A stretch of DNA of 64,000 nt from Algicola sp. (GTDB lineage: Bacteria > Bacteroidota > Bacteroidia > Flavobacteriales > Flavobacteriaceae), in assembly GCA_018222835.1 (NCBI GenBank), contig JAAEZN010000003.1:1472-65471 (forward strand). The letters are read 5' to 3'. The notes under the pieces are model-generated. The model made no database searches. It had not been told where the DNA came from and saw only the letters and a program-made list of their open reading frames with translations. A program made the position numbers and the translations under genes. Below, one piece after another: positions 6,825-41,688 of this stretch. How positions within the stretch are numbered: the first letter of the stretch is position 1; each line of letters begins with the position of its first letter.

Positions 6825-6904
6825 TGATCTTCAATTTAGTGCGCCAAATCTAACAAAATAATCCCAACCAAGCTGTTAAGAATTGAATAAGTGATTAAAG
6901 GGGC

Positions 6905-7714
6905 TCAGGAAACAATCGATGTGGTGAAGCTATGGGATTTACTTAAAAAATTTTGGCTCAAGACTGTTTTTCCCATTTTTGTATGTGATGTTGCGCTATA
7001 TAATGGAGCGGGAATCCCTCTTTTTTGGGCTTCCTCAAAATAATACACCTGTTTTTTTGGATGATGTGGATATACACCGTTAAAAATTTCGCCCCAATAA
7101 CCTTCTTTCAATATGGTTTGAATCATATGAATACAGTCGTTCAAGTGAATCAAGTTGATGGCGTGGTTGCCATTACCGAGTTGTTCTTTTCCCGACAAAA
7201 TGGTAACAGGATGCCTATCCGGGCCAATTAGCCCGCCAAATCGGATTATGGTGGTGTTAAGGCCATCTTCTTTTTGGAACAAGTTTTCAGATTCAACCAA
7301 TTGTTTGCCCGACTCTGTCACGGGCTGTGTTGGGGAAGCCTCTGTAACTTCGCCTTCCAAATTTCCATAAACAGCGGTACTGCTTACAAACAAAACATTG
7401 GGAACCTTACTTTCTTTAATTTCCGATAGCAATTTCTTCATTTTATCAACAAAACTCTCTGGATGTTTACCCCGAAGTTTTGGAGGTACATTAACAATCA
7501 AGGTTTCAATATCGGAAAGAAAACTTTGAACATTGCCCTCAATTCCTGTTTCGGACAAACGTATTTCGAATGACTCGATACCCTCGTTCTGCAATTCCTC
7601 TAATTTACTGGCGGAAGTGGTAGTGCCTTTAACGTGATATCCTTTTTCTATCAATTTTTTGGCCAAGGGCAGTCCCAGCCAGCCGCAACCCAGAATTCCA
7701 ATTTGTTTACTCAA
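6905..7714 (-). CDS. NAD(P)-dependent SDR-family oxidoreductase/epimerase (YeeZ-like)
   Basis: 269 residues. Starts with the dinucleotide-binding motif GILGCGWLGLPLA (GxxGxxG, about residues 6-18), then the beta-2 turn (KGTTTS). FVSSTAVYGNLEGEV and TTIIRFGGLIGPDRHP are typical of extended SDR/NAD-epimerases. The YxxxK is not preserved in the usual form, so catalytic ability is unsure. The start is TTG, sharing 8 bp (TTGAGTAA) with the end of the M28 peptidase gene, which implies coupled translation. Substrate unknown. Confidence 0.8.
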   Translation of the reverse strand: MSKQIGILGCGWLGLPLAKKLIEKGYHVKGTTTSASKLEELQNEGIESFEIRLSETGIEGNVQSFLSDIETLIVNVPPKLRGKHPESFVDKMKKLLSEIKESKVPNVLFVSSTAVYGNLEGEVTEASPTQPVTESGKQLVESENLFQKEDGLNTTIIRFGGLIGPDRHPVTILSGKEQLGNGNHAINLIHLNDCIHMIQTILKEGYWGEIFNGVYPHHPKKQVYYFEEAQKRGIPAPLYSATSHTKMGKTVLSQNFLSKSHSFTTSIVS

Positions 7715-24361: not shown

Positions 24362-24383
24362 AATGTTTGTTTAGTAGTTGTCA

Positions 24384-24449
24384 CTTCGAGCGCAGTCGAG
24401 AAGTCTTACTATCCAAAATTTTTTAAAGTGGGTCTCGACTGCGCTCGAC
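24384..24449. repeat. Palindromic repeat element, tex-metG intergenic
   Basis: Arms TCGAGCGCAGTCGAGA (24386-24401) and TCTCGACTGCGCTCGA (24433-24448) are perfect 16-bp reverse complements with a 31-base loop. It lies between the end of metG and the start of tex, both minus strand. The right arm, extended to 24432-24449, recurs in metG at 24998-25015 with one mismatch in 18. Confidence 0.85.
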
Positions 24450-24471
24450 CGGACAGTTTCTAGGATATAAA

Positions 24472-26568
24472 TTAACTTATAACTTCTCCATTGTTAACCC
24501 CATCCTCATCAGGATTAATAAAAACCAATTTCCCATCTTTGTTCTCCGTCATCAAAATCATCCCTTGGCTTTCCACACCACGTAGCTTTCTTGGGGCCAA
24601 GTTCACCAAAACGGTCACTTTTTTGCCTACAATATCTTCCGGCTTAAAGCTTTTGGCAATGCCCGATACAATAGTTCGCGTATCTAGGCCGGTATTCACC
24701 TTTAACACCAATAGTTTGTCAGCTTTTGGCATTTTTTCAGCTTCGATAATGGTTCCGACTCGCATATCCAATTTAGAGAAATCATCGTAAGTGATAGTGT
24801 CTTTTTGTGGAGTTACTTCCTTGTCCATTGCACTTGTGCTGAGCGTAGTCGAAGCATTGATTTTTTTAGTGGCTTCCAATTTCTGTAGTTGATGTTCAAT
24901 TTCGGCATCCTCAATTTTTCTGAAGAGCAGTTCGCTTTTGTTGATGGTGTGTCCAGCAGGAAGCAATGTATCTTCAGAAGCTACACTTTCCCATGAAGTC
25001 TCGACTGCGCTGGACTTGATATTAAGTATGCCTTTCAATTTTTCAGAAGTAAACGGCAAAAATGGTTCACTCAAAATAGCCAATCCTGTGGCAATCTGAA
25101 GAGCTACGTACATAATGGTCTTGACCCGTTCCTCGTCGGTTTTGATCAACTTCCATGGTTCGGCGTCTGCCAAATATTTATTGCCTAAACGTGCCAAGTT
25201 CATCAACTCTTGACTGCCTTCACGGAAACGATAGCGTTCCAGTGAGCTGGAGAGCAGTTTCGGATACCCTTTTAGGGCGTTCAAGGTTTCCACATCGGTT
25301 TCGGTAAGTTCCCCGGGAGCTGGAATGGTACCATCATAATATTTATGGGTCAAAACGGCTACACGGTTTACAAAATTGCCAAAAATAGCTACCAGTTCGT
25401 TGTTGTTTCTGGCCTGAAAATCTTTCCAAGTAAAATCATTGTCCTTGGTTTCCGGGGCGTTTGCGGTTAAGGTATAGCGTAGAACATCTTGCATATCCGG
25501 AAATTCCTCCAAATATTCGTGCAACCAGACGGCCCAATTTTTAGAGGTGGACAGCTTATTCCCTTCCAAGTTCAGGAATTCGTTGGCGGGCACATTTTCC
25601 GGCAGAATATAATCGCCATTGGCTTGTAACATACTTGGGAAGATGATGCAATGGAACACAATGTTGTCCTTGCCTATAAAGTGAACCAATTTGGTGTTTT
25701 CGTCCTTCCAATAAGGTTCCCAATCCTTGCCTTCGCGCTCGGCCCACTCTTTGGTAGATGAAATATAGCCGATAGGGGCATCGAACCAAACATAAAGTAC
25801 TTTGCCTTCGCCTCCATCAACAGGAACAGGTATTCCCCAATCCAGATCACGGGTTACGGCCCTTGGTTTTAAGCCTTCGTCTATCCAAGATTTGCATTGT
25901 CCATAAACGTTGGGTTTCCAGTCAGATTTGTGACCTTCCAAAATCCAATTTTTCAAGAAACCCTCATATCGGTCCAAAGGCAAAAACCAATGCTTGGTCT
26001 TTTTTAGAGTTGGAACCGTTCCTGTGATGGTCGATTTTGGGTCGATCAAATCCGTGGCATTGAGAGATGATCCACAATTTTCGCATTGATCGCCATAGGC
26101 TTCGTGGTGACCGCATCGAGGACAGGTTCCGATAACAAATCTATCGGCCAAAAACTGTTTGGCCTCATCATCGTACAATTGTTCGGTTTCTTCTTCTATA
26201 AAATCACCTTGCTCGTACATTTTTTTGAAGAATTCCGAAGCGGTTTTATGATGGATCTCTGCGGAAGTTCTGGAATAGTTGTCAAACGAAATTCCAAAAT
26301 CAGCAAAAGATTTTTTAATGATACCGTGGTATTTATCAATAATTTCTTTGGGGGTAACACCTTCTTTTTTGGCCTTCATGGAAATGGCTACACCATGCTC
26401 GTCGCTACCGCAAACAAAGGCCACATCGTTGCCTTTTAATCGCAAATAACGAGAGTAAATATCCGCGGGAACATAGACGCCGGCCAAGTGCCCAATATGA
26501 ATGGGGCCATTGGTGTAGGGCAGTGCGGCAGTAATGGTGTATCTGGAAGGTGATGTATTCTGAGCCAT
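24472..26568 (-). CDS. metG: Methionyl-tRNA synthetase
   Basis: Charges tRNA-Met. 698 residues, class I. Motifs: HIGH-equivalent [15 protein letters not shown] (residue about 21), zinc knuckle [18 protein letters not shown] (about 144-161), KMSKS-equivalent NKLSTSKNW (about 342), anticodon-binding helical domain, and a C-terminal dimerising tRNA-binding domain ([18 protein letters not shown] to the end). Oddity: two fragments of a dispersed palindromic repeat are in frame, at residues about 518-524 (KSSAVETS) and 571-578 (STTLSTSA), both in the linker between the anticodon and C-terminal domains. Confidence 0.97.
24837..24856. repeat. Repeat fragment inside metG
   Basis: TGCTGAGCGTAGTCGAAGCA, ends self-complementary (TGCT/AGCA). 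The core CTGAGCGTAGTCGAAG matches the arms of the mfd element (37156-37221) with one or two mismatches and the intergenic copies at 34622 and 39182. It is translated as part of the metG linker. Confidence 0.8.
24998..25015. repeat. Repeat arm inside metG
   Basis: GTCTCGACTGCGCTGGAC is identical in 17 of 18 bases to the right arm of the tex-metG intergenic palindrome (24432-24449), about 560 bp away, and lies in frame within metG. Confidence 0.8.
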
Positions 26569-26624
26569 GTAAAATTCTAATTAGGCCCCAAAAATACTGA
26601 TTTTAACGGGATAGACATAAAAAA

Positions 26625-26682
26625 GGAACCTCCCGAAAATGCTACCCTATTTGGGGTGAGGGGTGCATTCCCGAAAGGTTCC
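26625..26682 (-). terminator. Long imperfect hairpin terminator of the DUF1501 operon
   Basis: Read on the minus strand, GGAACCT pairs with AGGTTCC at the base, TTCGGG faces TTCGGG (C-G plus G-U pairs), AATGC pairs with GCATT, with an ACCCC/GGGGT region inside, and a run of six T follows. It lies after the DUF1501 gene and before metG. Long stem and wobble pairs are unusual for a simple terminator. Confidence 0.75.
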
Positions 26683-26713
26683 GAAAAAATAGATAACAAA
26701 GTGTCCCGCTTCT

Positions 26714-28432: not shown

Positions 28433-28441
28433 GGGTTGAGG

Positions 28442-29938
28442 TTATTTAAGTTGAAACTCGGGCTCGCGAGATAGGTGACGTAATAAAAGATAAACTTGCG
28501 ATGGTCCAGTTTCCCACCCAAGTAAAGTCCATGAAGGAGTTGTGCCTCCTTCATAATAATTAATGTCCACATCGCTCCTAAATGCGAGATATGCTCTATC
28601 GTAGTCAGCATTGGTCAGCAACCCTTTGGGTAAAAATTTATCGATGATGGGTCTGGCCACTTCGTCGGGGTTGTTACTTGTGAGCCCAGCATTACCAGAA
28701 AGCGATAGACCTAAATCCCTGAATTGTCCGGGATTGTTTTGATAAAATCGTTGTAAGAGCATCTCAACGGTCAACCATCTTCCAATAATAAAGTTGGTGT
28801 TTATCCATGTTCGGTCGCGCTGCCAGCCCTCTACCTCGGGTGGTTGAAAAAAGCGTTGTCCGATCAAGGAGCAGGCATCGATCATGTTTATAACGGTTCC
28901 ATCGTCATAGGTGAATCCTGTTTCCTTTAAGAGGTTAAAGTAAAGGTCGGCCGGACTTTTTATGATTACACCTATTGCTGTTTCGTCGAAAAAATGCTGG
29001 CTTTTAAAGAGTTGACGTAGCACAGGGGCAATTTCAAAACCACTATTTATAAAGGTCTGTGCCAAACCATCAATAATTTGTGGAGCGATTCCTCCATCAT
29101 CTCCGGTTGAATCGGGGTGGATAAAAAATTCGTAAAGTTTTTTACAGATAAACCAACCGATCTCGTTAGGTCTTTGGTTAAATAGGATGTCGATTACATC
29201 ATCGTAATCCCAGTTTCCTGTTTGTCCGAATATGGTCTTGTTCTCTGTATTGAACTCCGAAGGGTCGAACGTAACTTGGGTACATCCTTCCTCACCTCTT
29301 TCGGTATAACCGGACAAAGCCTTGGAGGTTTCTATTATATCTTCTTCGGTGTAATTATTTCCTTCTCCCAAAGTAAAAAGCTCATAAAGCTCACGGGCAT
29401 AGTTCTCGTTCGGATTGTTCCCTCGGTTTCTTACACCGTCCAAATAATAGAGCATGGCACTGGTTAGACCAACTTCACTGGTGAAGGTTTTAAAATTGCC
29501 CAAGGCATTTCGTTGTAAACAGTTGATGTAGTAATAAAGAAACTGTGGACAATCATAAGTTTCCAATTGTGTCACAAAGTGATTGCTCCAAAAGAAACTC
29601 AATCTATCGAGCAGTTCATTGTTCACCATGGCGTTTCCGTAGGCTGTGGTAAGCTCTTCAATATGGGCTCTACGCATTTGCCTTGCCAAATCGTCATCAT
29701 TTGGGTAATTGGCATTGTTCCAATCGGCCCATTGGGGGGCGGGGAGCGGAAGAACGGCAAGTGCTTGGTTTACCAAGGTATCTACTAGAGAGCTGGCCGA
29801 TTCTCCAACAGCAGCAGAAATGGTTTGTACTGAGGCACTAAAACCTAACCTTCGGTACAAGTGGGCCGCACGCAATTCATCCAATGGAGTATTGTACGGC
29901 GCCAAAGTTGAGGAATTACAATTGATAAAGTATTCCAT
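28442..29938 (-). CDS. DUF1800-domain protein
   Basis: 498 residues. Typical DUF1800 layout: AAHLYRRLGFSAS at the start (about residue 24), the helix FFWSNHFV, the acid-rich GVRNRGNNPNENYARELYELFTLG, WDYDDVIDILFNQRP, and PPEVEGWQRDRTWINTNFIIGRW. The function of DUF1800 is unknown; it is commonly paired with DUF1501, as here, suggesting a joint extracytoplasmic role. I see no clear signal peptide on this one, which leaves the export route open. Followed 9 bp later by the DUF1501 gene. Confidence 0.9.
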   Translation of the reverse strand: MEYFINCNSSTLAPYNTPLDELRAAHLYRRLGFSASVQTISAAVGESASSLVDTLVNQALAVLPLPAPQWADWNNANYPNDDDLARQMRRAHIEELTTAYGNAMVNNELLDRLSFFWSNHFVTQLETYDCPQFLYYYINCLQRNALGNFKTFTSEVGLTSAMLYYLDGVRNRGNNPNENYARELYELFTLGEGNNYTEEDIIETSKALSGYTERGEEGCTQVTFDPSEFNTENKTIFGQTGNWDYDDVIDILFNQRPNEIGWFICKKLYEFFIHPDSTGDDGGIAPQIIDGLAQTFINSGFEIAPVLRQLFKSQHFFDETAIGVIIKSPADLYFNLLKETGFTYDDGTVINMIDACSLIGQRFFQPPEVEGWQRDRTWINTNFIIGRWLTVEMLLQRFYQNNPGQFRDLGLSLSGNAGLTSNNPDEVARPIIDKFLPKGLLTNADYDRAYLAFRSDVDINYYEGGTTPSWTLLGWETGPSQVYLLLRHLSREPEFQLK

Positions 29939-30108
29939 AGCAATGTCTGGCGTTAAATAAGTACATAGTTTTGGGGCAACTATATGTTTATGCTAATGTT
30001 GGGTGTGGTTCAATTGAGCCAACAAATTACAATCTTAACGTTCTAATGTCCATGAACGACCAAATTTTTCGACGAAATGCACAAAAAAATTAGATCTTTA
30101 TAAAATAT
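29939..30108. other. Divergent promoter region between DUF1800 and YraN
   Basis: 170 bp, AT-rich, must hold promoters for both directions. GGTTCAATTGAGCC (about 30008-30021) is a near-perfect 14-bp palindrome with one G-T position, a possible operator. No RNA gene seen. Confidence 0.4.
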
Positions 30109-30468
30109 ATGGCCCATCACAACACATTTGGAAAGCTCGGCGAGCAAAAAGCGGTTGCTTTTTTAGAGAGTAAGGGATACAAAATATGTCATCGTAACTA
30201 CCGGTATCTCAATGCTGAAATCGACATTGTGGCCGAAAAGGAAGGGATTTTGGCCATAGTAGAGGTGAAGTCCCGAAATACTAGGTTTTTGGAAGATATT
30301 TCCACGGTGATATCCTCTAAAAAAATTAAACTTTTGACCATGGCGGCAAATCATTTTATCGAAAAAAACAATATAGATGTTGAGGTTAGATTTGATGTGA
30401 TTACGGTGGTAAAAAAGGGTCAGGAGTTTGAAATAGAACACTTTGTAGATGCGTTCTATCATTTTTAA
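30109..30468 (+). CDS. YraN family (UPF0102) endonuclease-like protein
   Basis: 119 residues, the normal size. A PD-(D/E)xK-type nuclease pattern is visible: GEQKAVAFLESKGYKICHRNYR, then NAEIDIVAEKEGILAIVEVKSRNT with the E-x-D...E-V-K catalytic arrangement (about residues 39-60). YraN proteins are related to Holliday-junction resolvases, but their role is not firmly known. First of a short plus-strand run with the ACT-like gene. Confidence 0.92.
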   Translation: MAHHNTFGKLGEQKAVAFLESKGYKICHRNYRYLNAEIDIVAEKEGILAIVEVKSRNTRFLEDISTVISSKKIKLLTMAANHFIEKNNIDVEVRFDVITVVKKGQEFEIEHFVDAFYHF

Positions 30469-30521
30469 CCATTTGTTTGTTTTATAACAATGTGTTATTT
30501 TTGGATAAATTCTCGCCGAAA

Positions 30522-31181
30522 ATGAAAACAATATCTGCCGTAGTTGAGCACTACATAAAGAAAAAGCCTTTTTTGCAAACTGCTTTGGCACAAGGGATTA
30601 TAAACCTAACTTCCCTGTCTAGGCAAATAAAGCCAGAGATTGCCGAAGAACTCGGTAAAGATGTAAAAGATGGCGCTATTGTAATGGCACTTAAACGCCT
30701 TTCGGATGATCTGGAGTTTAGGGCAACCCACAAGATTGTAAAAGTGCTCAAAAATATTGGTGAAATTACCGTTAGGTCCAATTTGTCCGATTACACTTTC
30801 CTGGCCTCCGATACTATTTTGCAACAACAGGCTAGATTACTGGAAGAGGTAAACGCTAATCAAGATGTATTTTATACCTCCTCTCGGGGGGTGAACGAAA
30901 TCAATATTGTTATCAGTAATGTGATGGACAGTGTTGTGGAGAAGTACTTTAAAATGGAGCGGTGTACCCAAAAGGCGGAGGGGCTCTCTTCCATTACCGT
31001 AAAACTACCTTCCGATAACGTAGCGGTACCAGGTATTTATTACTTTATCTTTCAACGATTGGCATGGGAGGGCATTATACTTTATGAAGTGATTTCTACT
31101 ACAAACGAGTTCACGATTTTGGTGAACGAAGAACAAGTAGATGTTGCCTTTAAGACCATTAAGGATCTAAAATCATTATAA
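30522..31181 (+). CDS. ACT-like regulatory protein (often mislabelled aspartate kinase)
   Basis: I start it at ATG 30522 (MKTISAVVEHYIKKKPFLQ), 219 residues; an upstream in-frame start at 30477 adds an atypical leader. The N-terminal half is helical (LQTALAQGIINLTSLSRQIKPEIAEEL, KDGAIVMALKRLSDDLEFR); the C-terminal half has two ACT-like repeats (INIVISNVMDSVVEKYF and GIILYEVISTTNEFTILVNEEQVDVAFKTIKDL), as in the regulatory part of aspartokinases. No kinase domain is present. It may bind an amino acid and regulate transcription or an enzyme; function unknown. Confidence 0.75.
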   Translation: MKTISAVVEHYIKKKPFLQTALAQGIINLTSLSRQIKPEIAEELGKDVKDGAIVMALKRLSDDLEFRATHKIVKVLKNIGEITVRSNLSDYTFLASDTILQQQARLLEEVNANQDVFYTSSRGVNEINIVISNVMDSVVEKYFKMERCTQKAEGLSSITVKLPSDNVAVPGIYYFIFQRLAWEGIILYEVISTTNEFTILVNEEQVDVAFKTIKDLKSL

Positions 31182-31254
31182 CCTGAGATAACTTTTAGTG
31201 GCCTAAACTAAAATAGGTTCTTCTTCGTTTTAGAAAAAGACACTTTTTGGAAAA

Positions 31255-33237
31255 ATGACCAAGAAAAGGATTCTTTATGGTTTTCTGGGCCTAATTGTAC
31301 TGTACTTGTGCTATTTGGTCTATATTTTTGTGCTATCCCCCAAAACAAATCTTCAATCCATTTACCTTATCCCAAAGGATGCGGTTTTCGTTATTGAATC
31401 GGAACGGCCTGTGGAGGGTTGGGAGCAGATCAGTAAAAGTAAAGCTTGGCACCACCTTAAAAAGAACGACTACTTTTCCGAACTCACGGAAAGCATCCAA
31501 AGGGTAGATACAGTTTTTAACAACAATCATAAACTATTCGAGTTTTTTGATGATCGCTCCCTGTTTATTTCCATTCATATGACTTCTCCCAAGGACTATG
31601 GGATTTTTTATGTACTCGATTTAAAACGGATTGCCAAATTACAATTGCTCAAAACCTATTTGAATACTTTGCTGGACGATGGTTATGTGCTGAGCAAACG
31701 TACCTATCACGAACACGAGATCTTGGAAGTGCACGATCGGGAGAGCAAGGAGACCATGTATTTGTCCTTTATCAAAAATCAATTGGTAGCCTCCTATACC
31801 CACACCTTGGTGGAAGCTTCCATAGATCAGTATGCGGAGCCAGTATTGGGCCGCAACCTCAACTTTTTGGAGATCAATCAAAAAGTAGGGCACGAGGACT
31901 TGTTCCGATTATATGTGCAATATCATTTTTTTGACGATTACATTAAAATGTATTCGGATCAGCCTTCCAACTGGGTAAAACGCGTAAGCGAAAACTTTTT
32001 GTTTTCCGGATTCTATTTTGATTTGGACAAGAACAGCACACTTACTGCCAACGGATACACCAACATTAGCGCAGTTAACGAGTATTATCTGGAAGCACTT
32101 CAAAAATCGGGAAAAGCAAAACGTTCCATTCCCGAAGTGGCGCCTAACAGCACAGCACTTTATGTAAGTTATGGGTTTGATAGCTTTTCCGAATTCTACA
32201 AAAATTTTGAAAAAGTCCAACAAAGTGACCCCGAACAATTTGAAAGCTATCAAGAAGGCATTACCAAAGTAGAGAAGTTTCTAAAAATTGATGTAAAGGA
32301 GAATTTTGTGAGTTGGATAGGGAACGAAATCGCCGTGCTTCAAATCCAATCCCACATTACCAAAGGTAAAAACGATGTTGCGCTCGTCCTCAAAGCGAAT
32401 AATGCCGAGGATGCCAAGACCAATTTGAATTTTGTGGTGGAACAGATCCGTAAAAAGACACCCGTAAAGTTTAAAGCGGTAAATTATAAGGATTACGAAA
32501 TAAATTTCTTGTCCATCAAAGGTTTCTTTAAGATGTTGTTGGGCGGCAGGTTCGATGAATTCGATAAGCCTTATTTTACCCAAATAGATGATTATGTAAT
32601 CTTTAGTGATAATCCAAACACCCTAAAGGGTATAATTGATAAGGTATCGGAGGGTGATATCCTTGCGAGTTCGGAGGAGTTCAAGAATTTTGATGAAAAA
32701 TTTGATTCAGAATCCACAGTGTTCGTTTACAGTAATGTGCCTTTGCTGTTTGATAACATGTATGCCTTGGCAGATGCGCCGACCAAACAGAAAATGTACA
32801 AGAACAAGGATTTTATTATTTGCTTCCCTCAAGTAGGATTGCAATTGACCCCAGAAGATGATTTGTTCGAAAGTCGTTTGGTGCTCAACTATAAGGATGT
32901 GGAAGAAGTAAAGAAAGCGACCAATCCGTCAAAAAACATTAACACAACGACTCCGAAAAATCAAAATATAACATCAACCGAGATAACCGATGCCGTTTTT
33001 AATCTTAAACCTATTTACCCGAACGACTTAAATGCGAAGTCGTTCACCAAAAAATACGCCAACGGGGACGTCAGGTTTCAAGTAGAACTTAAGGATGGAT
33101 TAAAACACGGTCGTTACGAAGCGTTTTATCCAAACGGTATCCGAAAAATACGAGGTCGCTTTAGGGATGATGAGCAGGTGGGCACATGGCGGTATTACAA
33201 TGAAGATGGGGAGCAAGTCCATAAAAAACGGTTCTAG
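31255..33237 (+). CDS. DUF3352-like membrane-anchored protein with MORN-like C-terminus
   Basis: 660 residues. One N-terminal membrane segment (ILYGFLGLIVLYLCYLVYIFVL, residues 5-27) anchors a large extracytoplasmic domain (about 30-560) resembling DUF3352 (IPKDAVFVIESERP, KNFVSW-like VKENFVSWIGNEIAVLQIQ). After a Thr/Asn-rich linker the last 60 residues form MORN-like repeats (NGDVRFQVELKDGLKHGRYEAFYPNGIRKIRGRF, DDEQVGTWRYYNEDGEQ), as in YwqK-type proteins. Probably envelope-associated. Function unknown. Confidence 0.75.
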   Translation: MTKKRILYGFLGLIVLYLCYLVYIFVLSPKTNLQSIYLIPKDAVFVIESERPVEGWEQISKSKAWHHLKKNDYFSELTESIQRVDTVFNNNHKLFEFFDDRSLFISIHMTSPKDYGIFYVLDLKRIAKLQLLKTYLNTLLDDGYVLSKRTYHEHEILEVHDRESKETMYLSFIKNQLVASYTHTLVEASIDQYAEPVLGRNLNFLEINQKVGHEDLFRLYVQYHFFDDYIKMYSDQPSNWVKRVSENFLFSGFYFDLDKNSTLTANGYTNISAVNEYYLEALQKSGKAKRSIPEVAPNSTALYVSYGFDSFSEFYKNFEKVQQSDPEQFESYQEGITKVEKFLKIDVKENFVSWIGNEIAVLQIQSHITKGKNDVALVLKANNAEDAKTNLNFVVEQIRKKTPVKFKAVNYKDYEINFLSIKGFFKMLLGGRFDEFDKPYFTQIDDYVIFSDNPNTLKGIIDKVSEGDILASSEEFKNFDEKFDSESTVFVYSNVPLLFDNMYALADAPTKQKMYKNKDFIICFPQVGLQLTPEDDLFESRLVLNYKDVEEVKKATNPSKNINTTTPKNQNITSTEITDAVFNLKPIYPNDLNAKSFTKKYANGDVRFQVELKDGLKHGRYEAFYPNGIRKIRGRFRDDEQVGTWRYYNEDGEQVHKKRF

Positions 33238-33310
33238 ATTTCTCGTCGCATTGCTCCATCGAAATGACTTTGGGGCACCCTATGTCATTTCGAACGAATG
33301 TGAGAAATCT
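33236..33310. repeat. 75-bp palindromic repeat element, copy 1
   Basis: Left arm 33236-33268 begins AGATTTCTC and ends CGAAATGAC; right arm 33284-33310 begins GTCATTTCG and ends GAGAAATCT, so both tips pair perfectly over 9 bp. It starts inside the stop codon of the DUF3352-like gene. The left arm is identical over 33 bases to copy 2 at 34668-34700. Confidence 0.9.
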
Positions 33311-33332
33311 AATTTGTTGTTCCGAGCTGCTA

Positions 33333-33350
33333 CCTTAGCGAAGTCGAAGG
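33333..33350. repeat. Repeat fragment upstream of serine hydrolase
   Basis: CCTTAGCGAAGTCGAAGG has the AGCGAAGTCGAAG core shared with the mfd element and self-complementary ends (CCTT/AAGG). Confidence 0.6.
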
Positions 33351-33441
33351 AGAGTGAAGAATCCCTATAAATATCTCATTGGTTGGTTGGAGCAATTCCC
33401 AACAATTGTTACCTTTCTTGTCCAATCCAAACCTCTGTAAA

Positions 33442-34599
33442 ATGAAAAACAGCATAGTTGCGGTTATACTTCTTGCCGCATTTACCACTACTTTTAATGT
33501 CAACTCCCAACAAATCAATTTTCCAAAACGCTACGAAACTTGGAAAACAGCAGAAAAGGGTCAATTCAAGTTCAACAAAACAGTGCTGGACAAAGCAGTG
33601 GGGTTTGCTAATGCCAATGAATATTCAGGGTCTAGGGATTTAAGGGTTGCTATTTTGGAAGGCTTTAAGCACGAACCTTTTCATCAAATACTGGGTCCGA
33701 CCAAAAAGCGCGGAGGCCCAGCTGGTATGGTTATGAAGAACGGCTATGTTTTGGCCTCTTGGGGCGATACCAAACGTGTTGATATGACCTTTAGTGTAAC
33801 CAAGAGTTTTTTGTCCACCGTTGCCGGATTGGCCAAAGACCGTGGATTGATCCAAGATACCAAGGATAAGGTAGGCAATTACATTTGGGATGGCACTTTT
33901 GCTGGTGAGCATAATTCCAAAATAACATGGGAACATTTACTACAACAAAATTCCGATTGGTCGGGTGAGCTTTGGGGCGGTAAAGACTGGGCAGACCGTC
34001 CACCAAGTGAAGGTGGTCTGGACGATTGGAAGTTTAGAACCTTAAACGAACCGGGCAAAGTAATGGAATATAATGATGTTAGGGTGAATGTACTTGCCTA
34101 TTCATTGACCCATGTATGGAGAAAGCCCGTTCCCATGGTGCTCAAAGAAGAGCTAATGGATAAAATCGGAGCTACTACGTCTTGGAGATGGTTCGGTTAC
34201 GAAAATGCTTGGACCGTTATTGATGGTATAAAAATGAAATCCGTGACCGGAGGCGGACATTCAGGAGCGGGACTTTTTATTTCTACAGAAGATATGGCCC
34301 GTTTTGGAACCTTGTTCTTGAACAATGGTAAATGGGAAGATGAGCAAATCATCAGTGAGGATTGGATCAAGGAAGCGACTACGCCTTCTGTACCTAACGT
34401 GAATTATGGTTACATGTGGTGGCTGAACCAACAAGGTGGCCGACATTGGGATGGTGTGCCCGAGCATGTGTTCTACGCTGCTGGTTTTGGAGGTAATTTT
34501 ATTGTGGTAGACCAAAAAAGCGGATTGGTCATCGTGACCCGTTGGTTGGAACCTTCCAAAATAGGAGAATTTGTGAAGCAGGTGTACGAGGCTTTTTAA
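33442..34599 (+). CDS. Serine hydrolase, beta-lactamase (class C) family
   Basis: I start it at ATG 33442 (MKNSIVAVILLAAFTTTFNVNSQ, a signal peptide), 385 residues; the longer frame from 33379 runs into the repeat region. Catalytic SxxK is in FSVTKSFLSTVAGLAKDRG, the YxN-like tyrosine in VMEYNDVRVNVLAYSL, and a C-terminal GGG-type box follows (VYAAGFGGNFIVVD-like region). Related to esterases, D-amino-acid peptidases and class C beta-lactamases; substrate unknown. The gene is flanked by two 75-bp palindromic repeats as direct repeats. Confidence 0.88.
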   Translation: MKNSIVAVILLAAFTTTFNVNSQQINFPKRYETWKTAEKGQFKFNKTVLDKAVGFANANEYSGSRDLRVAILEGFKHEPFHQILGPTKKRGGPAGMVMKNGYVLASWGDTKRVDMTFSVTKSFLSTVAGLAKDRGLIQDTKDKVGNYIWDGTFAGEHNSKITWEHLLQQNSDWSGELWGGKDWADRPPSEGGLDDWKFRTLNEPGKVMEYNDVRVNVLAYSLTHVWRKPVPMVLKEELMDKIGATTSWRWFGYENAWTVIDGIKMKSVTGGGHSGAGLFISTEDMARFGTLFLNNGKWEDEQIISEDWIKEATTPSVPNVNYGYMWWLNQQGGRHWDGVPEHVFYAAGFGGNFIVVDQKSGLVIVTRWLEPSKIGEFVKQVYEAF

Positions 34600-34621
34600 A
34601 GTTGAGTGTTATTCCTTGTGG

Positions 34622-34643
34622 ATGCTGAGCGTAGCCGGAGCAT
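34622..34643. repeat. Repeat fragment downstream of serine hydrolase
   Basis: ATGCTGAGCGTAGCC then GGAGCAT: self-complementary ends around the CTGAGCGnAGnCGnAG core seen in mfd and metG. 22 bp downstream of the serine hydrolase stop. Confidence 0.75.
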
Positions 34644-34667
34644 TACACGAAAGCTTTTATCGGTTAT

Positions 34668-34742
34668 AGATTTCTCGTCGCATTGCTCCATCGAAATGAC
34701 TCTGAAAATATAGTTGTCATTTCGAACTAAGGTGAAAAATCT
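34668..34742. repeat. 75-bp palindromic repeat element, copy 2
   Basis: Same length and order as 33236-33310: left arm 34668-34700 identical over 33 bases, a different 15-base centre, and right arm 34716-34742 differing at a few positions. It sits between the convergent ends of the serine hydrolase and mfd genes. Confidence 0.9.
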
Positions 34743-34746
34743 TATG

Positions 34747-37700
34747 CTATGCAGAAACATTCTCTTTTTGAGGAGTAAAAGGCTGGAGCATCTTCAACGC
34801 TTTTTCTACATTGGTAATTCTGTCGAATGTAAGCAATAAACGGAGTCCATTTCGAGTCTCTTTTTCCTTAAGTTTCACCAATTGTGGATGTGTTTGGGCA
34901 TATTGAAGCACTTTGGTAAATGCAGGGCTTTGATAAAAACTAGATTGTTGGTCAGCGATAAAATAACCGATAAACTTACCTTTTTTCATGATGACCTTTT
35001 CCAGACCAATGTGGGTGGCGATCCATTTAATGCGGACAGAGTTCATTAAATCCACAGCTTGTTCTGGTAATTCTCCGAAGCGATCTACGAGTTGTGCCTC
35101 AAATTTTTGCAGACCTTCTTCGTCTTCAATACCATTTAATTGAGTGTACAGGTTCAGTCGCTCGGTAATATTATTGATGTAATCATCAGGGAAAAGCAAT
35201 TCAAAATCGGTGTCGAGCTGTAATTCTTTTACATAGACCTTTTCCTTATCACCCTCAACTTCTTCATATAACTCCTTGAACTCATTTTCCTTTAGTTCAT
35301 CAATCGCTTCGGACAGTATTTTTTGGTACGTCTCGAATCCAATTTCATTAATGAAGCCACTCTGCTCACCTCCCAAAAGGTCACCTGCGCCACGGATTTC
35401 CAAATCTTTCATGGCAATGTTGAAACCGCTACCTAAATCTGTGAATTGTTCCAACGCTTCGATACGTTTGCGTGCTTCTGGTGTCATCACTTCGTATGGA
35501 GGGGTTATAAAGTAACAGAAGGCCTTTTTGTTGCTTCGGCCTACGCGTCCCCGCATTTGGTGAAGGTCGCTCAACCCAAAATTGTTGGCATTGTGAATAA
35601 ATATGGTGTTCGCATTGGTCACGTCCAATCCACTTTCAATAATGGTGGTTGAAACCAATACATCAAACTCGCCATTCATAAACGAAAGCATTAACGATTC
35701 CAGTTTTTTGCCCTCCATTTGTCCATGTCCGATTCCGATTTTCGCATCAGGAACCAAACGTTGGATCATGCCTGCCACTTCCTTAATGTTCTCAATTCGG
35801 TTGTGGATAAAGAATACCTGTCCTCCCCGTTGGATTTCGTAAGACACAGCATCTCGGATAATTTCCTCGTTCAATCGAATTACTTGACTCTCGATCGGGT
35901 AACGGTTCGGTGGTGGTGTATTGATGACGGAAAGATCCCGGGCAGCCATCAAACTAAATTGAAGCGTTCGTGGTATTGGAGTGGCCGTTAAGGTAAGCAC
36001 ATCCACATTTTCTTTGATGGAACGTAATTTTTCCTTGACCGAAACCCCAAATTTTTGCTCCTCATCTACAATCAACAAGCCTAAATCTTTGAACTGTACA
36101 TTTTTGTTCACCAGTTGATGGGTGCCGATAATAATATCAACTTTACCAGCGGCCAAGCGCTCCAGAACATCCTTTTTTTCCTTGGCGGTACGGAAACGAT
36201 TCAGGTAATCCACTGTAACGGGCATTTCTTTCAAGCGTTCCTTGAATGTTCTGCTATGTTGAAATGCCAAAATAGTGGTGGGTACCAAAATAGCCACTTG
36301 CTTGCCATTATCCACCGCTTTAAATGCTGCACGTATGGCAACTTCCGTTTTCCCAAAACCTACATCGCCGCAGATTAGGCGATCCATAGGTCGTTCGCTC
36401 TCCATGTCCTTCTTTACGTCTTGGGTGCTCTTTTCCTGGTCAGGTGTATCCTCGTAGATGAATGATGCTTCCAGTTCGTGTTGCAGATAGCTGTCGGGAG
36501 CATATTGAAAACCTTTTTCCAATCTACGTTTGGCATAAACCTTTATAAGGTCGAAGGCAATCTTTTTAACCCTTGCCTTGGTTTTTTGCTTTAGTTTTTT
36601 CCAAGCAGCGGAACCAAGTTTGAAAATCTTTGGAGGCGCACCGTCCTTGCCATTGTATTTGGATATTTTGTGCAGTGAGTGGATACTGACGTAGAGAATA
36701 TCTCGATCGCCATATATTAATTTGATGGCTTCCTGTTTTTTGCCCTCCACGTCTATTTTTTGTAATCCGCCGAACTTGCCGATACCATGATCAATATGGG
36801 TCACATAATCACCAATTTCCAGTTTGTTAAGTTCTTTTAGTGTAATGGCCTGCTTTTTGGCATAGCCATTTTTTAGATGGAACTTATGGTAACGTTCAAA
36901 AATTTGATGGTCGGTATAGCAAGCAATCTTCAAATCTTGATCAACAAAACCTTGGAACAACGGAAATATTATAGTTTGATAATGGACAGTTTGGTCAACT
37001 TCATCAAAAATATCATGAAAACGTTTGGCCTGTTGTTCGGTAGAACAGAAAATATAGTTGTTGAAACCTGCATCTCGATTGGCGTTGAGATTTTCAATGA
37101 GCAGGTCGAACTTTTTATTGAAGGAGGGTTGTGGTTTGGTATGAAAGACGATTTCGTCACTTCGACTTCGCTCAGTGACCGTGTTGTCTGAACTTTGTGG
37201 GCTGAGCGGAGCCGAAGCTCCAATCTCAATACATAAATATTCCTGCAACTGCTCTTTCAGCAAAGCTGAATCCAAAAAAAGCTCTTTAGGTTGAGCGTGT
37301 TTGATATCCTTGCTCAACTTAGCAAAACTTTCTTCCGCTTTTTCAAAAAAGGAATCGATCCGGTCGTAGATCAAAGCAGGGTTCTTCGCAAAGACCACCG
37401 TGTAGGCTGAAATATATTTTAAGAAACTTTCCCGTATTTCCTCAGTGAACTTATTTTCCACATTCGGAATAATAGAGATTTTCTTCACTTTGTCCGTTGA
37501 AAGCTGTGTTTCCACATCAAAAGTTCGGATACTGTCCACTTCATCTCCAAAAAACTCGATACGGTAGGGTTCGTCGTGCGAGAATGAAAATACATCCACA
37601 ATACCTCCTCGAACCGAAAACTCTCCGGGTTCAGTAACAAAATCAACTCTTTTAAACTGATACTCAAAAAGCACTTCGTTTAAAAAATCCAACGAAATCT

Positions 37701-38169
37701 CATCTCCAATTTTGATCTTTTGGGTGTTCTTGTCCAGCTCCTTCCGCGTAACGACCTTTTCAAAAAGGGCATCGGGATAGGTGACGATGATGGCCGGCTT
37801 TTTTCTGGAGTTGATTCGGTTGAGCACTTCGGCGCGGAGCAATACGTTCGCATTGTCCGTTTCCTCTATTTGATAGGGCCTTCGGTAGCTGCCTGGATAA
37901 AAAAGCACATCTTTTTCTCCCAAGAGTTGCTCCAAATCATTCAAATGATAGGCCGCTTCCTCTTTATCGTTCAAAATCAACAAAAATGGAGATTCAGTTG
38001 ACTTGAAAGCTTCCGAAAGGACAAAGGATAACGAGGAACCCACTAGCCCTTTTAAATTGATTTTTCGTGAAGATCCTAAAGGGTTGTCTTGAGTTTGGGA
38101 AATAGTATCCCTCAGTTTCCCGAGTTGGGGAGACTGCTCAAAGAGTTGCGAAATCGGGGTTTTGGTCAA
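34747..38169 (-). CDS. mfd: Transcription-repair coupling factor Mfd
   Basis: Removes stalled RNA polymerase at DNA lesions and recruits UvrA. 1140 residues. UvrB-homology region at the N-terminus (about 50-300), RNA polymerase-interaction domain (YVTHIDHGIGKFGGLQKID, about 460-520), helicase domains with Walker A GDVGFGKTEVA (about 600), DEEQ box (LLIVDEEQKFG), TATPIPRTL, and the C-terminal TRCF domain. No ATG is available near the start: TTG 38169 fits, 12 nt after a likely transcription start. A 66-bp palindromic repeat is inserted in frame at residues about 317-338. Confidence 0.96.
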   Translation of the reverse strand: MTKTPISQLFEQSPQLGKLRDTISQTQDNPLGSSRKINLKGLVGSSLSFVLSEAFKSTESPFLLILNDKEEAAYHLNDLEQLLGEKDVLFYPGSYRRPYQIEETDNANVLLRAEVLNRINSRKKPAIIVTYPDALFEKVVTRKELDKNTQKIKIGDEISLDFLNEVLFEYQFKRVDFVTEPGEFSVRGGIVDVFSFSHDEPYRIEFFGDEVDSIRTFDVETQLSTDKVKKISIIPNVENKFTEEIRESFLKYISAYTVVFAKNPALIYDRIDSFFEKAEESFAKLSKDIKHAQPKELFLDSALLKEQLQEYLCIEIGASAPLSPQSSDNTVTERSRSDEIVFHTKPQPSFNKKFDLLIENLNANRDAGFNNYIFCSTEQQAKRFHDIFDEVDQTVHYQTIIFPLFQGFVDQDLKIACYTDHQIFERYHKFHLKNGYAKKQAITLKELNKLEIGDYVTHIDHGIGKFGGLQKIDVEGKKQEAIKLIYGDRDILYVSIHSLHKISKYNGKDGAPPKIFKLGSAAWKKLKQKTKARVKKIAFDLIKVYAKRRLEKGFQYAPDSYLQHELEASFIYEDTPDQEKSTQDVKKDMESERPMDRLICGDVGFGKTEVAIRAAFKAVDNGKQVAILVPTTILAFQHSRTFKERLKEMPVTVDYLNRFRTAKEKKDVLERLAAGKVDIIIGTHQLVNKNVQFKDLGLLIVDEEQKFGVSVKEKLRSIKENVDVLTLTATPIPRTLQFSLMAARDLSVINTPPPNRYPIESQVIRLNEEIIRDAVSYEIQRGGQVFFIHNRIENIKEVAGMIQRLVPDAKIGIGHGQMEGKKLESLMLSFMNGEFDVLVSTTIIESGLDVTNANTIFIHNANNFGLSDLHQMRGRVGRSNKKAFCYFITPPYEVMTPEARKRIEALEQFTDLGSGFNIAMKDLEIRGAGDLLGGEQSGFINEIGFETYQKILSEAIDELKENEFKELYEEVEGDKEKVYVKELQLDTDFELLFPDDYINNITERLNLYTQLNGIEDEEGLQKFEAQLVDRFGELPEQAVDLMNSVRIKWIATHIGLEKVIMKKGKFIGYFIADQQSSFYQSPAFTKVLQYAQTHPQLVKLKEKETRNGLRLLLTFDRITNVEKALKMLQPFTPQKENVSA
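37156..37221. repeat. Palindromic repeat element inside the mfd reading frame
   Basis: Arms CTTCGACTTCGCTCAG (37160-37175) and CTGAGCGGAGCCGAAG (37202-37217) pair at 14 of 16 positions; the left arm is itself flanked by GTCAC/GTGAC. The 66 bp equal 22 codons, so the frame is kept. The encoded linker reads SAPLSPQSSDNTVTERSRSD. Confidence 0.85.
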
Positions 38170-38186
38170 TCCAAAAAACTTTGTGG

Positions 38187-38194
38187 CAAAGATA
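38187..38194 (-). promoter_or_regulatory. Bacteroidota -7 element of mfd
   Basis: On the minus strand TATCTTTG matches TAnnTTTG exactly, 17 bp upstream of the TTG start at 38169. This implies a very short leader and supports the TTG start. No clear -33 TTG. Confidence 0.55.
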
Positions 38195-38298
38195 AACCGC
38201 TGAAACTTTTACTAAAAATGTTTTTTTTGGTTTCTTGCCATTTTGTTGTTTGATAATTTTTTGACCCTAATGGCACCAATTACCTCGAATTATTCTTT

Positions 38299-38325
38299 GC
38301 CATTTCGTACTGAGTCGAGAAATCT
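38299..38325. repeat. Half copy of the palindromic repeat
   Basis: GCCATTTCGTACTGAGTC followed by GAGAAATCT matches the right arm of the 75-bp elements (GTCATTTCG...GAGAAATCT). No left arm is present. Intergenic between mfd and pdeM. Confidence 0.7.
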
Positions 38326-38346
38326 TGTAATCTATTTACGATGAGA

Positions 38347-38365
38347 TGCTGAATCAAGTTCAGCA
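38347..38365. terminator. Small hairpin downstream of pdeM
   Basis: TGCTGAA (38347-38353), 5-base loop, TTCAGCA (38359-38365): perfect 7-bp stem, 14 bp past the pdeM stop on the minus strand. No T run follows, so termination is uncertain; it may be part of the repeat family. Confidence 0.4.
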
Positions 38366-38378
38366 TAACGTACATTAT

Positions 38379-39011
38379 CTAAACTTTAAAAATACTATCC
38401 TCTGCGATGGCATATACTTCATCCGATTTTTTTGGATCAAGGGAGTGGGTTCCCGTGAATTGCCCAAAAGCAGGTAATATCATTTGATTCTCAGATTTAA
38501 AAAAGCAGGGCAATTTTAAACGGTCTTTTCCAATTCCTTTGAGTTTAATAGAGGGGTGAACGTGCCCACAAAAGGTAAAATGACTCTCTCGTTCCTCGGG
38601 ATGATGGGTCAAAAGAAAAGAATCGATAATCAACTCTGGGAATATGGAAATCTTCAGTTTTTCGAATTTTTCTGGAGCAATAATGTCGTGGTTGCCTGTA
38701 ACCAAAAGTATTTCTGTTGGGGTTTTAGCGACCCAATTCTCGAACAATTCCCATTCCTTGTTGAGCGATGAATGAAAGAGGTCGCCCAAAAAACAGATTT
38801 GAAAAGGTTGAAAATCGGACACGATTTTATCCAGTAGTAAAAAGTTTTGGTGAATGGCCTTTCTCGGAACGGCTGCCCCAAACTTTCTAAAGTGGGATAC
38901 CTTGCCCAAATGCACATCACTGATCAGCAAGAGTGATTTCTCTTCCCAAAATAATCCACCCAAAGGGTGTAGATGAAATTCTTGATTTTGTATTTTAATT
39001 TTTTGAATCAT
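38379..39011 (-). CDS. pdeM: Ligase-associated DNA-damage-response metallophosphoesterase PdeM
   Basis: Calcineurin-like phosphoesterase/endonuclease. I start it at ATG 39011 (MIQKIKIQNQEFHLHPLGG), 210 residues; the frame from 39047 would begin inside a repeat. Metal-binding motifs: SDVHLGK, GDLFHS, TGNHD, LLTHHPE and CGHVHP. PdeM genes normally sit with an ATP-dependent DNA ligase, a nuclease and an Lhr-like helicase; here only the helicase is present, just upstream, separated by a palindromic repeat block. Confidence 0.9.
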   Translation of the reverse strand: MIQKIKIQNQEFHLHPLGGLFWEEKSLLLISDVHLGKVSHFRKFGAAVPRKAIHQNFLLLDKIVSDFQPFQICFLGDLFHSSLNKEWELFENWVAKTPTEILLVTGNHDIIAPEKFEKLKISIFPELIIDSFLLTHHPEERESHFTFCGHVHPSIKLKGIGKDRLKLPCFFKSENQMILPAFGQFTGTHSLDPKKSDEVYAIAEDSIFKV

Positions 39012-39042
39012 TTGTGTCAGATTCTTCAAATGTACTTTAATT

Positions 39043-39126
39043 GTCATTTCGAACCGAGATAAGCAAGTGTGAGAAATCTATTTTTAGATTTCTCAATCGT
39101 CGTTGCACTTCTCATTTCGAAATGAC
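39043..39126. repeat. 84-bp palindromic repeat element between pdeM and helicase
   Basis: Left part 39043-39079 starts GTCATTTCGAA and ends GAGAAATCT; after six bases, right part 39086-39126 starts AGATTTCTC and ends TTCGAAATGAC. The arms are in the opposite order to the 75-bp elements, with the GAGAAATCT/AGATTTCTC pair next to the loop. Confidence 0.88.
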
Positions 39127-39181
39127 CCCATGGCGTTATGTTGAATTTGTTTCAGTATCTCAAACAGATGCGGTTCTATGC

Positions 39182-39205
39182 GATGCTTCGACTACGCTCA
39201 ACATC
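39182..39205. repeat. Repeat fragment upstream of pdeM block
   Basis: GATGCTTCGACTACGCTCA then ACATC: GATG/CATC ends around the CTTCGACTACGCTCA core that also occurs in metG and mfd. Confidence 0.75.
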
Positions 39206-39240
39206 CGAACGATACTTCTTGCATGCATGTTTTTTGGAAG

Positions 39241-41688
39241 TTATTTGGTTAATTTATCAACCATTCGCTTAATACGGTCCGCCAATTTTTCGTTAGACAG
39301 TTTTTCCCGTAACCGGTCCGTAACAATCGGGAAGGAGAGGGGCGTGGGTTGAGAACACTTTTTCCAAACAATTTCCTGTTGGGCAATGCGCTCCAATGCC
39401 AATCGTAAACGACCTTCCTCCAATTGGTGCTCAAAGGTTTCGGTATAGGCTTGTTGATACAGCAAATTATCATCTTCAAAATCTCGGAAAACATCAAATA
39501 GCAATTCCGAACTGCTTTGCAGGTGTTTCATTTTGATGCCTTTTTCGGGATAGCCCGTAAAAACCATACCGCTGATAACGGCAATGTCGCGGAACTTTCT
39601 ACGTGCCATTTCGTTGGAATTCAAGCTTTTTTGTAGGTCGGACAACATGTAATCTGGGGTAAATAGGTTGTTGTCCAGAATTTCCTGAACGTCAATTTCC
39701 CGATCGGACAACAATTCAAAACCATAGTCGTTGAAAGCGAGCGAACAGGTAATTGGGTTCAATAAACTAATGCGATATGCCAGCAGACTGCTCATTCCCT
39801 CGTGGATGGCCCTTCCTTCAAATGGGTAGAACATATGATGGTAGCCATCACGGGTTTGGAAGGTTTCAATCAAGAATTGATGGGGTTGTGGAACAATACT
39901 TTCCTCTCGTTGTTTGGAGAACATTTGTTCTAATGCCTGTATTTCTTGGGATTGTTCTGAAAACTCCAATTTAGCTGTGTAGAGTTCTTGACGCAGCAAC
40001 TCTGACATTTTTGCGGAAAAACTTAATCGCCCTCCCATCCAACTGGGTACTTTGTTGGTTCTTTTTTGGGAATTGCGAACGTGTGCCGACATTCCTTTGA
40101 TTCTAATAAACTCCAAATTTCGGCCAGCGAAGGTAAAAACATCGCCCGGGCTCAATTTGGAGATAAAGTACTCTTCAATTGTTCCAATATATCCTCCCTT
40201 TTGATAACGAACAGAAATAGAGGCATCCCCGACAATGGTTCCGATTTGAAAACGGTGCCGCATGGCCACAGCTCTACTGTTCACTTTAAATTTCCCATCT
40301 TCTTCAATTTCCACTTTTTTGTATTCGTCGTAGCTCTTCAGGCTTTGACTTCCCATCACTAAAAAATTAAGTAACCATTGCCATTGTTCTTTCGAAACGG
40401 CCTGATAGCAAAATGTCTGTTTTATCTCGGGATAAATCTCATCAGGATAAAATCCATCAGAAACAGCTAAAGTGGTCAAATATTGAATAAGGACATCGAA
40501 ACTGTTCAGGTAGGGGATACGGTCTTCAACAGCACTGTTCAGTACGGCCTTCTGCATTGCTGAAGCTTCGACCAGTTCTATGGCATGCGTAGGTAAAAAA
40601 TGGATAACACTTTCCTTTCCTGGTCGATGGCCACTGCGCCCAGCGCGCTGCAAAAAACGGGCAACTCCCTTCGGGCCGCCAATCTGTACAACAGTTTCCA
40701 CAGGGGCAAAATCCACTCCAAGGTCTAAGCTCGACGTGCAGACGACGGCTTTGAGACTTTCGTTACGGATGGCCTGTTCCACCCATAATCGGGTTTCTTT
40801 GTTGATACTGCCATGGTGCATGGCCATTTCCCCCGCGAATTCAGGATATTTTTCCAAGATTTTTTGGAACCAGATTTCGCATTGGCTCCGGGTGTTGGTG
40901 AATAGCAAGGTGGTTTTGCTGCCGTTGATAATGGGCACTACTTGGTCTAAAAGATGCAATCCCAAATGCCCGCGCCAAGGAAAAGTTTCCATTTCCTTTG
41001 GAATAATACTTTTTACGGTAATCTTTTTATTGAGGTCGGACTTTACCAATATAGAATTGCCCAGTTCGGGTGTGGTGGGCCCCAACAGTACTTCCCGAGC
41101 CTGTTCCAAATTGCCTATGGTAGCCGATATGCCCCAAATACGTAATTCTTTACAGATGGTTTTTAACCTAGAAAGCCCCAATTCCATTTGTACGCCTCGT
41201 TTGGTGCCTAAAAGCTCGTGCCATTCGTCAACCACAATGGCAGAGCAGTTTTTAAAAGTTTTTGCATAACCTTTGGAGGATAGTAATAATTGTAAGCTTT
41301 CCGGTGTGGTGATCAACAGGTCGGGCATGTTGGTTCGCATTTTTGCCCGTTCCTTTGCAGATGTGTCCCCGGTGCGGATACCAACCGTCATTTGTGTGCC
41401 TAAATCTTGGGTGATACGTTCTGCCGATTGTTTGATTTCTTGCGAAAGTGCTCGGAGGGGGGTGATCCAAATGGCTTTTAGTCCTTTTTTGTGATTGGTT
41501 TTATACTCCGGATTGTTTTTGATGTAGTTGAGTACAATCGGAAACCAAAGTGCATAGGTTTTACCACTTCCGGTCGGGGCATTTAAAAGACCGTGCTTGC
41601 CGTTCAAAAAAGCTTTCCAAGTTTCTTTTTGAAAGGGGAATGGTTGCCATTTTTGCTCTTGGAACCATTTTTCAGCGATATGGTACAA
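39241..41688 (-). CDS. Ligase-associated DNA-damage-response DExH helicase (Lhr-like)
   Basis: 815-residue superfamily 2 helicase. Walker A in LLNAPTGSGKTYALWFP (about residues 33-49), DEWH box in IVVDEWHELLGTKRG, motif III SATIGN, motifs V-VI in CTSSLDLGVDFAPV and FLQRAGRSGHRPG, then the winged-helix and Lhr core. Works with PdeM and a DNA ligase in a Bacteroidota repair pathway inferred from gene neighbourhoods. No ATG precedes MYHIAEKWF-like residues; the start is TTG 41688 and an in-frame stop lies 54 bp upstream. Confidence 0.92.
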   Translation of the reverse strand: MYHIAEKWFQEQKWQPFPFQKETWKAFLNGKHGLLNAPTGSGKTYALWFPIVLNYIKNNPEYKTNHKKGLKAIWITPLRALSQEIKQSAERITQDLGTQMTVGIRTGDTSAKERAKMRTNMPDLLITTPESLQLLLSSKGYAKTFKNCSAIVVDEWHELLGTKRGVQMELGLSRLKTICKELRIWGISATIGNLEQAREVLLGPTTPELGNSILVKSDLNKKITVKSIIPKEMETFPWRGHLGLHLLDQVVPIINGSKTTLLFTNTRSQCEIWFQKILEKYPEFAGEMAMHHGSINKETRLWVEQAIRNESLKAVVCTSSLDLGVDFAPVETVVQIGGPKGVARFLQRAGRSGHRPGKESVIHFLPTHAIELVEASAMQKAVLNSAVEDRIPYLNSFDVLIQYLTTLAVSDGFYPDEIYPEIKQTFCYQAVSKEQWQWLLNFLVMGSQSLKSYDEYKKVEIEEDGKFKVNSRAVAMRHRFQIGTIVGDASISVRYQKGGYIGTIEEYFISKLSPGDVFTFAGRNLEFIRIKGMSAHVRNSQKRTNKVPSWMGGRLSFSAKMSELLRQELYTAKLEFSEQSQEIQALEQMFSKQREESIVPQPHQFLIETFQTRDGYHHMFYPFEGRAIHEGMSSLLAYRISLLNPITCSLAFNDYGFELLSDREIDVQEILDNNLFTPDYMLSDLQKSLNSNEMARRKFRDIAVISGMVFTGYPEKGIKMKHLQSSSELLFDVFRDFEDDNLLYQQAYTETFEHQLEEGRLRLALERIAQQEIVWKKCSQPTPLSFPIVTDRLREKLSNEKLADRIKRMVDKLTK

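Follow-up and report, generated by a model that had tools for sequence, protein, structure and literature searches.

A 66-nt stretch at 37156-37221 (minus strand) of the window (the whole 64,000-nucleotide stretch of DNA that was analysed) encodes residues 317-338 of Mfd, GASAPLSPQSSDNTVTERSRSD, and differs among the species compared here. Judged by sequence comparison, this segment was inserted into a linker that is not conserved; most probably it is a head-to-head copy, of type A, of a REP-like hairpin element dispersed in marine flavobacteria. The turnover of hairpin types at this one linker of Mfd is new. About 70 species of one genus form a natural series in which the linker is empty, variously filled or nested, to which purL adds both orientations and RecG a nuclease-bearing insert or an apparent in-frame scar; with this series, mechanism and tolerance become testable. 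Odd recurring peptides (VTERSRS, ETLKQVQGD and VTSSAVEKQ) are explained by in-frame translation of hairpin DNA, a point that bears on annotation and on the analysis of linkers.

The insert lies in a linker of Mfd

The host gene, mfd (34747..38169, minus strand), was assigned by Pfam and by solved relatives; counted from the TTG listed as its start, it encodes 1140 aa. Pfam placed UvrB_inter at residues 151-236 and CarD_TRCF_RID at 450-505, and the best solved-structure match was E. coli Mfd, with residues 249-402 unaligned in that match. The insert falls in this unaligned region, which separates the RID domain from the UvrB-like part. As originally predicted, the repeat adds 22 residues within an intact frame of 1140 aa. 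The same prediction spoke of essential genes; mfd is dispensable in E. coli, and the word is too strong for this gene. Names of genes other than mfd, such as metG, are putative and were assigned from characteristic motifs.

Among named Mfd proteins, those of [Muricauda] lutisoli and Flagellimonas oceanensis are the closest, at 93% identity, and the window was therefore placed in the Allomuricauda/Flagellimonas/Muricauda group. The set of genomes called the genus below comprises 71, including that of the window itself.

Each end of the insert is a small hairpin

The element consists of two hairpin units on the minus strand: unit 1, GGTCACTGAGCGAAGTCGAAGTGAC (37156..37180), with an outer stem of 6 bp, and unit 2 (37196..37221) in inverted orientation, with its core at 37202-37216 carrying one mismatch. 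The two ends are inverted copies of each other at 16 of 26 positions, a value reached by 8 of 10,000 letter shuffles. No inverted pair was picked up at 37156-37221 by a search for inverted repeats that used a 9-nt seed. With a stem of its own in each arm and no pair in that search, a single large palindrome was ruled out; the inverted pair that had been described stands, as two head-to-head hairpins instead of one 66-bp palindrome. The folded-DNA energy of the element was mildly better than that of shuffled sequences (z = -1.74, with 10 of 200 shuffles as good), and folding energies were weak across seven sequences (z from -1.09 to -3.42).

The copies have in common a 12-nt core, GAGCGNAGTCGA; the flanking bases vary yet pair with each other. 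For 31 copies in the window's own genome, the outer stem averaged 4.29 bp, compared to 1.68 bp when right flanks were re-dealt among copies (highest of 1000 re-deals, 2.29 bp). Similarly, the mean in other genomes (82 copies, 59 loci) was 4.05 bp versus 1.83 bp (best re-deal, 2.15 bp). The cores had been collected by exact match, and in most copies the first two stem pairs were set by the search pattern; pairs 3 and 4, which are the real test, formed in 88% and 93% of the 82 copies versus 29% and 32% in the control. At named loci around mfd, picked without regard to repeats, 37 copies had a mean stem of 4.46 bp, a figure without a shuffle control. The outer stem is thus about 4-5 bp around the 12-nt core, and extends further only when G.A pairs within the core are included. 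By the rules of pairing, two G.A pairs in the core, with a T bulged out, could close a GNA mini-loop; the energy model showed the outer stem alone. Hairpins of types B, C and D, as found at the Mfd linker, have other sequences with the same outline, a variable stem around a small core. A known RNA family was rejected as an identity for the element, with no Rfam match up to an E value of 1 in the window region 24300-39300.

Copies are dispersed and depleted in genes

With up to 3 mismatches, TTCGACTNCGCTCAG, the 15-nt form of the core, matched the window at 11 places, versus a mean of 2.23 (sd 1.37) in shuffled sequences, and none of 100 shuffles reached 11. Two of these matches are the ends of the Mfd element. 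The predicted sharing of the core with metG and with intergenic DNA was borne out. Besides mfd, metG (24472..26568, minus strand) also has an in-frame hairpin in this window, a single one, and holds an exact type-A core at 24839..24853 (minus strand); relatives without this core are 21 nt shorter here. Intergenic type-A cores are found at 39187..39201 (plus strand) and 33334..33348 (minus strand), each with one mismatch, and at 34625..34639 (minus strand) with two. Other types also lie between genes: a type-B hairpin pair just past metG (24372..24462) and a type-C hairpin just upstream of mfd (38349..38363, plus strand). Downstream of the type-C copy, at 39043-39126, there is a further intergenic palindrome with GTCA...TGAC ends.

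The window's own genome contains 24 exact copies of the 15-nt core and none of the reversed control. In the genus, 63 of 71 genomes carry the core (0-50 copies each), the reversed control being absent from all 71; in the phylum it is present in 62 of 171 genera (105 of 395 genomes), and 3 genomes have reversed matches. Five of the 24 exact cores are inside conserved genes, namely mfd, metG, leuS (twice) and purL, whereas about 21 would be expected in genes at a rough coding share of 89% (binomial p = 1.5e-14). That share came from a simple ORF rule applied to 457,096 sampled bases and ranged from 0.72 to 0.99 per stretch; one of the 24 cores sits 4 bases from a contig end, and its setting cannot be judged. 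The count of genome copies proposed at the outset thus gave many, with a share in conserved genes far below expectation.

At least three frames are used to read the copies, giving TERSRS, STPLS and FDSAQ, and the peptide is therefore not the part that is preserved. It had been suggested that the element itself inserts in multiples of three; copies in three or more frames, with only 5 of 24 in conserved genes, speak against such a property. For the same reasons, the in-frame state looks like the outcome of selection after insertion, and the copies within genes look like survivors. That the insert is instead a selected functional part of Mfd is highly improbable. The type-A peptide VTERSRSD does recur in many species of the genus, which favours such a role, but at that place other species lack a peptide or have an unrelated one, the arms of one copy are translated in different frames, and the recurrence of the peptide is accounted for by the DNA core together with common descent.

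Hairpins in metG, purL and leuS

MetG, PurL and LeuS each have a single linker with in-frame hairpins. The exact junction that had been proposed as a check was clean in metG. Among 30 relatives, 11 were empty (NAQ-M or NEQ-M) and 19 were longer by 21 nt, junctions being read by eye only; 6 of the 19 filled forms retained the exact core, and the others had decayed. For mfd the same check was unclear, its linker being hypervariable in every genus examined.

The purL linker of 30 relatives held A in 11, B in 7, no hairpin in 5, a derived form in 1 and another hairpin class in 1. In 4 of the 30, including the window's own genome, the loop of an older A holds a further A, and in 1 of 30 A is reversed. 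At the same purL linker, the core has opposite orientations in loci L457 (genome G042) and L456 (G001). In the linker of the LeuS editing region, A, B, C-like or nested hairpins occur in many of 50 loci, and the linker is short in others.

Hairpin types turn over at the Mfd linker

The Mfd site was read in 69 genomes of the genus; G048 and G059 gave no mfd match. We typed the site with eight arm motifs, allowing up to 25% mismatch, the motifs having themselves been named from these Mfd sites. Hairpin-repeat sequence of types A-D was found at the linker in 59 of the 69 genomes and was absent from 10. The same motifs were found in 3 of 28 rows of other genera, in which the linker is 24-49 residues long and unconserved in sequence, and letter shuffles of 97 sites passed in 0 of 1940 cases. 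G042 was left out of the tree and of the neighbour test below because its mfd frame is broken; the break (locus L090) is just before a second insertion site and is either a real loss or a sequencing error.

In the remaining 68 rows, the site held A in 20, C in 14, no hairpin in 10, B in 9, the right half of B in 7, D in 4, the left half of B in 3 and an A/B chimera in 1. That other hairpin types occupy this linker in relatives is an observation the original prediction does not mention. On an Mfd tree built without the site, these types require at least 35 changes. Close sisters are unlike each other: C in G028 versus B in G062, A in G057 versus B in G070, and B in G034 versus A in G068. At the second Mfd site, five genomes (G049, G068, G039, G047 and G020) carry an in-frame type-A pair. 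Hairpins are also nested: a CCTGCCG-type palindrome lies within the A-hairpin core in mfd of G026 and in leuS of G057, G058 and G011. Type D is rare away from Mfd, with no core copy in the sample of the window's own genome and 1 in 80 named loci.

Outside the genus, 7 of 59 named rows had a motif with up to 3 mismatches, a count that excludes matches with 5-6 mismatches and is accompanied by 4 of 80 named loci without an anchor. The seven are an Aquimarina, Psychroserpens mesophilus (B, then C), three Salinimicrobium species (C forward in two and reversed in one), a Maribacter assembly and an unnamed Bacteroidetes. At the same threshold, 22 of 76 named loci matched in the 135-nt stretch taken as the site and 4 elsewhere in about 3.3 kb. 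Protein-level conservation of the segment across distant Flavobacteriaceae, which had been named in advance as the outcome that would speak against an insertion, did not occur.

Some of the turnover may reflect exchange of DNA between species. G062 and G069 are identical over the 60 nt left of the Mfd site and about 12% different elsewhere, and G062 differs from its sister G028 by 13.3% left of the site against a mean of about 5.5%, one distant block also reaching 13.3%. Over all rows, agreement of type between nearest neighbours was 31.8 of 68 when neighbours were chosen by the nearest 20 codons on the left, the best of ten blocks, versus 18.5-26.7 for the nine other 20-codon blocks and 29.5 for the rest of the gene. 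Exchange beside the site is clear in this one pair (G062/G069) and weak over all rows, and homologous exchange as the whole account was rejected.

A broader alternative is that nothing now moves: exchange of mfd by homologous recombination would have spread old hairpins among species, and mutation or template switching in place would have produced new types. The identical stretch of G062 and G069 is in its favour, as is the fact that the best type-predicting block adjoins the site. We consider it unlikely, since exchange alone does not create types, the same cores occur at many unrelated places, B and C are also found between genes, and A is present at one purL linker in both orientations and nested in itself.

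Search for a mover

Under the preferred reading, insertion of a dispersed hairpin element, the unit needs an outside mover because it has no gene of its own. One candidate is a RAYT (Y1 transposase), perhaps since lost, with the unit being a classic REP. The size, hairpin form and head-to-head pairs are REP-like, and Y1_Tnp matches occur in 13 of the 71 genomes of the genus. However, there was no Y1_Tnp match in the window's own genome, the identical search being positive in 5 of 14 control genomes, and none of 8 Y1_Tnp loci of the genus (L122-L129) contained an A-D core. GTAG was found within 12 nt before the core in just 4 of 31 own-genome and 2 of 82 other-genome copies, in none at a fixed spacing. 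Mobilisation by a RAYT was therefore not supported, and we regard it as quite unlikely. Three of the eight loci (L127, L128 and L129) are RAYT-like by length and score, and the palindromes that adjoin them are unrelated to A-D.

Another protein domain was found at linkers of this kind. In leuS, the linker gap exceeded 350 nt in 5 of 69 genomes with a LeuS match, and all five contained an in-frame DUF559-like domain; the one insert run against Pfam gave DUF559 with an E value of 1.1e-36. These five loci (L269-L273; G036, G043, G056, G038 and G047) have the domain at the linker where others have A/B hairpins. RecG of the window's own genome (L313; G000:C61, about 6696-7802) has an in-frame DUF559 nuclease domain between helicase motifs, bordered by CTCCC/GGGAG hairpins. 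Six genomes of the genus, including this one, have such a RecG, with frames of 881 aa. Among the remaining 65, RecG was of empty length in 56 (29 read, 27 by length only), had a short in-frame insert at that point in 6, was partial in 1 and gave no match in 2; the short insert of G025 still has the two ends of the larger insert. In G020 and G047 (L291, L304 and L438), a MetH-like protein (1042-1044 aa) also has an in-frame DUF559 between hairpins, and a type I restriction subunit-like protein in G042 and G049 (L439 and L440) has an in-frame DUF559-like segment.

The hairpins at the ends of DUF559 inserts are of a class other than A-D, and no A-D core was found within about 400 nt of DUF559 in the loci placed by script, nor in the printed flanks of eleven others. 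The number of strong DUF559 matches per genome correlated with that of A cores (Spearman 0.53, p = 2e-6, among the matches listed and ignoring descent). DUF559 is, by hypothesis, a candidate mobiliser of the Mfd repeat. Extending this, we suggest as a possible but doubtful scheme a selfish class of in-frame elements whose full form, DUF559 between hairpin ends, lies in tolerant linkers of RecG, LeuS and MetH and is translated with the host protein, and whose reduced forms are hairpin-only linkers. DUF559 activity would move transposase-less CGTC-type REPs, including that of Mfd; one place to land would be the loop of a resident hairpin, and linkers would thus be refilled repeatedly.

Whatever moves it, the history of the element may be pictured as follows. 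Units would land across the whole genome; most landings in genes would be purged, and those that survived would lie in tolerant linkers and have a net length that keeps the frame. There, resident hairpins would decay into ordinary peptide or be swapped between species by homologous recombination, and further hairpins would arrive, some of them in the loop of a resident one, taking one site through many types. The unit would be moved in trans, most likely by a nuclease or strand-handling activity on hairpins and not by a RAYT transposase. No fresh insertion was seen in the genomes compared, which we count against this explanation.

Comparison with known systems

The original prediction likened the repeat to Rickettsia palindromic elements (RPEs), reportedly described by Ogata in 2000 and 2002. 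The concept of a dispersed, mobile-type repeat read in frame fits, copies being carried by metG, leuS (twice) and purL as well; in both systems, palindromic repeats are translated in frame as added residues of unrelated housekeeping proteins, here in mfd, metG, leuS and purL. The Mfd repeat works like an RPE. RPEs are described as about 150 bp long (PMC10969869), whereas the repeats here are 21-66 nt, comprise several unrelated sequence types at one site and lie mostly outside genes.

Homing-endonuclease elements and inteins resemble only the DUF559 inserts, in having a nuclease domain at defined sites in conserved genes; for the LeuS and RecG segments Pfam gave DUF559 and no intein domain. 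In contrast, the 66-nt Mfd element encodes 22 linker residues and no gene. In the open-licence PMC literature, no match was found to the core strings and, among the top matches listed, no paper on such Flavobacteriaceae repeats or on in-frame DUF559 inserts.

REPs have been divided into GTAG and CGTC classes (PMC3733652, in the text available). GTAG REPs and BIMEs are likewise inverted hairpin pairs scattered between genes, but the repeats here lack GTAG at a fixed spacing, and their own genome lacks a RAYT.

CGTC REPs, as described by Di Nocera 2013 (PMC3733652), are not tied to transposase genes and occur in repair genes and tRNA synthetases; in recB, two Xanthomonas species carry them at nearly the same position. 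Two CGTC families of R. conorii are equated there with RPE-4 and RPE-6. They share with the present repeats small hairpins with heterogeneous stems, head-to-head pairs, presence in Bacteroidetes and positions inside repair genes and tRNA synthetases. Many copies here may also bear the CGTC/TGTC tag, and a dedicated transposase is probably lacking here too, none of the eight Y1_Tnp loci examined having a core. The tag stands 5 nt before the core in 10 of 12 type-C copies at named loci (some of them at the Mfd site) and 2 of 3 in the window's own genome. For A/B, two sets of copies from other genomes had it in 35 of 82 and 13 of 37 cases, and the own genome in 3 of 31; the A/B units of the own genome are thus mostly untagged, unlike CGTC REPs, and their core pairs via G.A mismatches, if at all. 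The CGTC class is defined by a stem of 8-9 bp and a loop of 4-5 nt, compared to an outer stem of about 4-5 bp and a 12-nt core here. The available text of that paper (PMC3733652) does not describe, for CGTC REPs, a turnover of types among some 70 species at a single linker, nesting in loops, or nuclease inserts at the same linkers. Among known systems, the Mfd repeat comes closest to the CGTC REPs, of which it may be a member.
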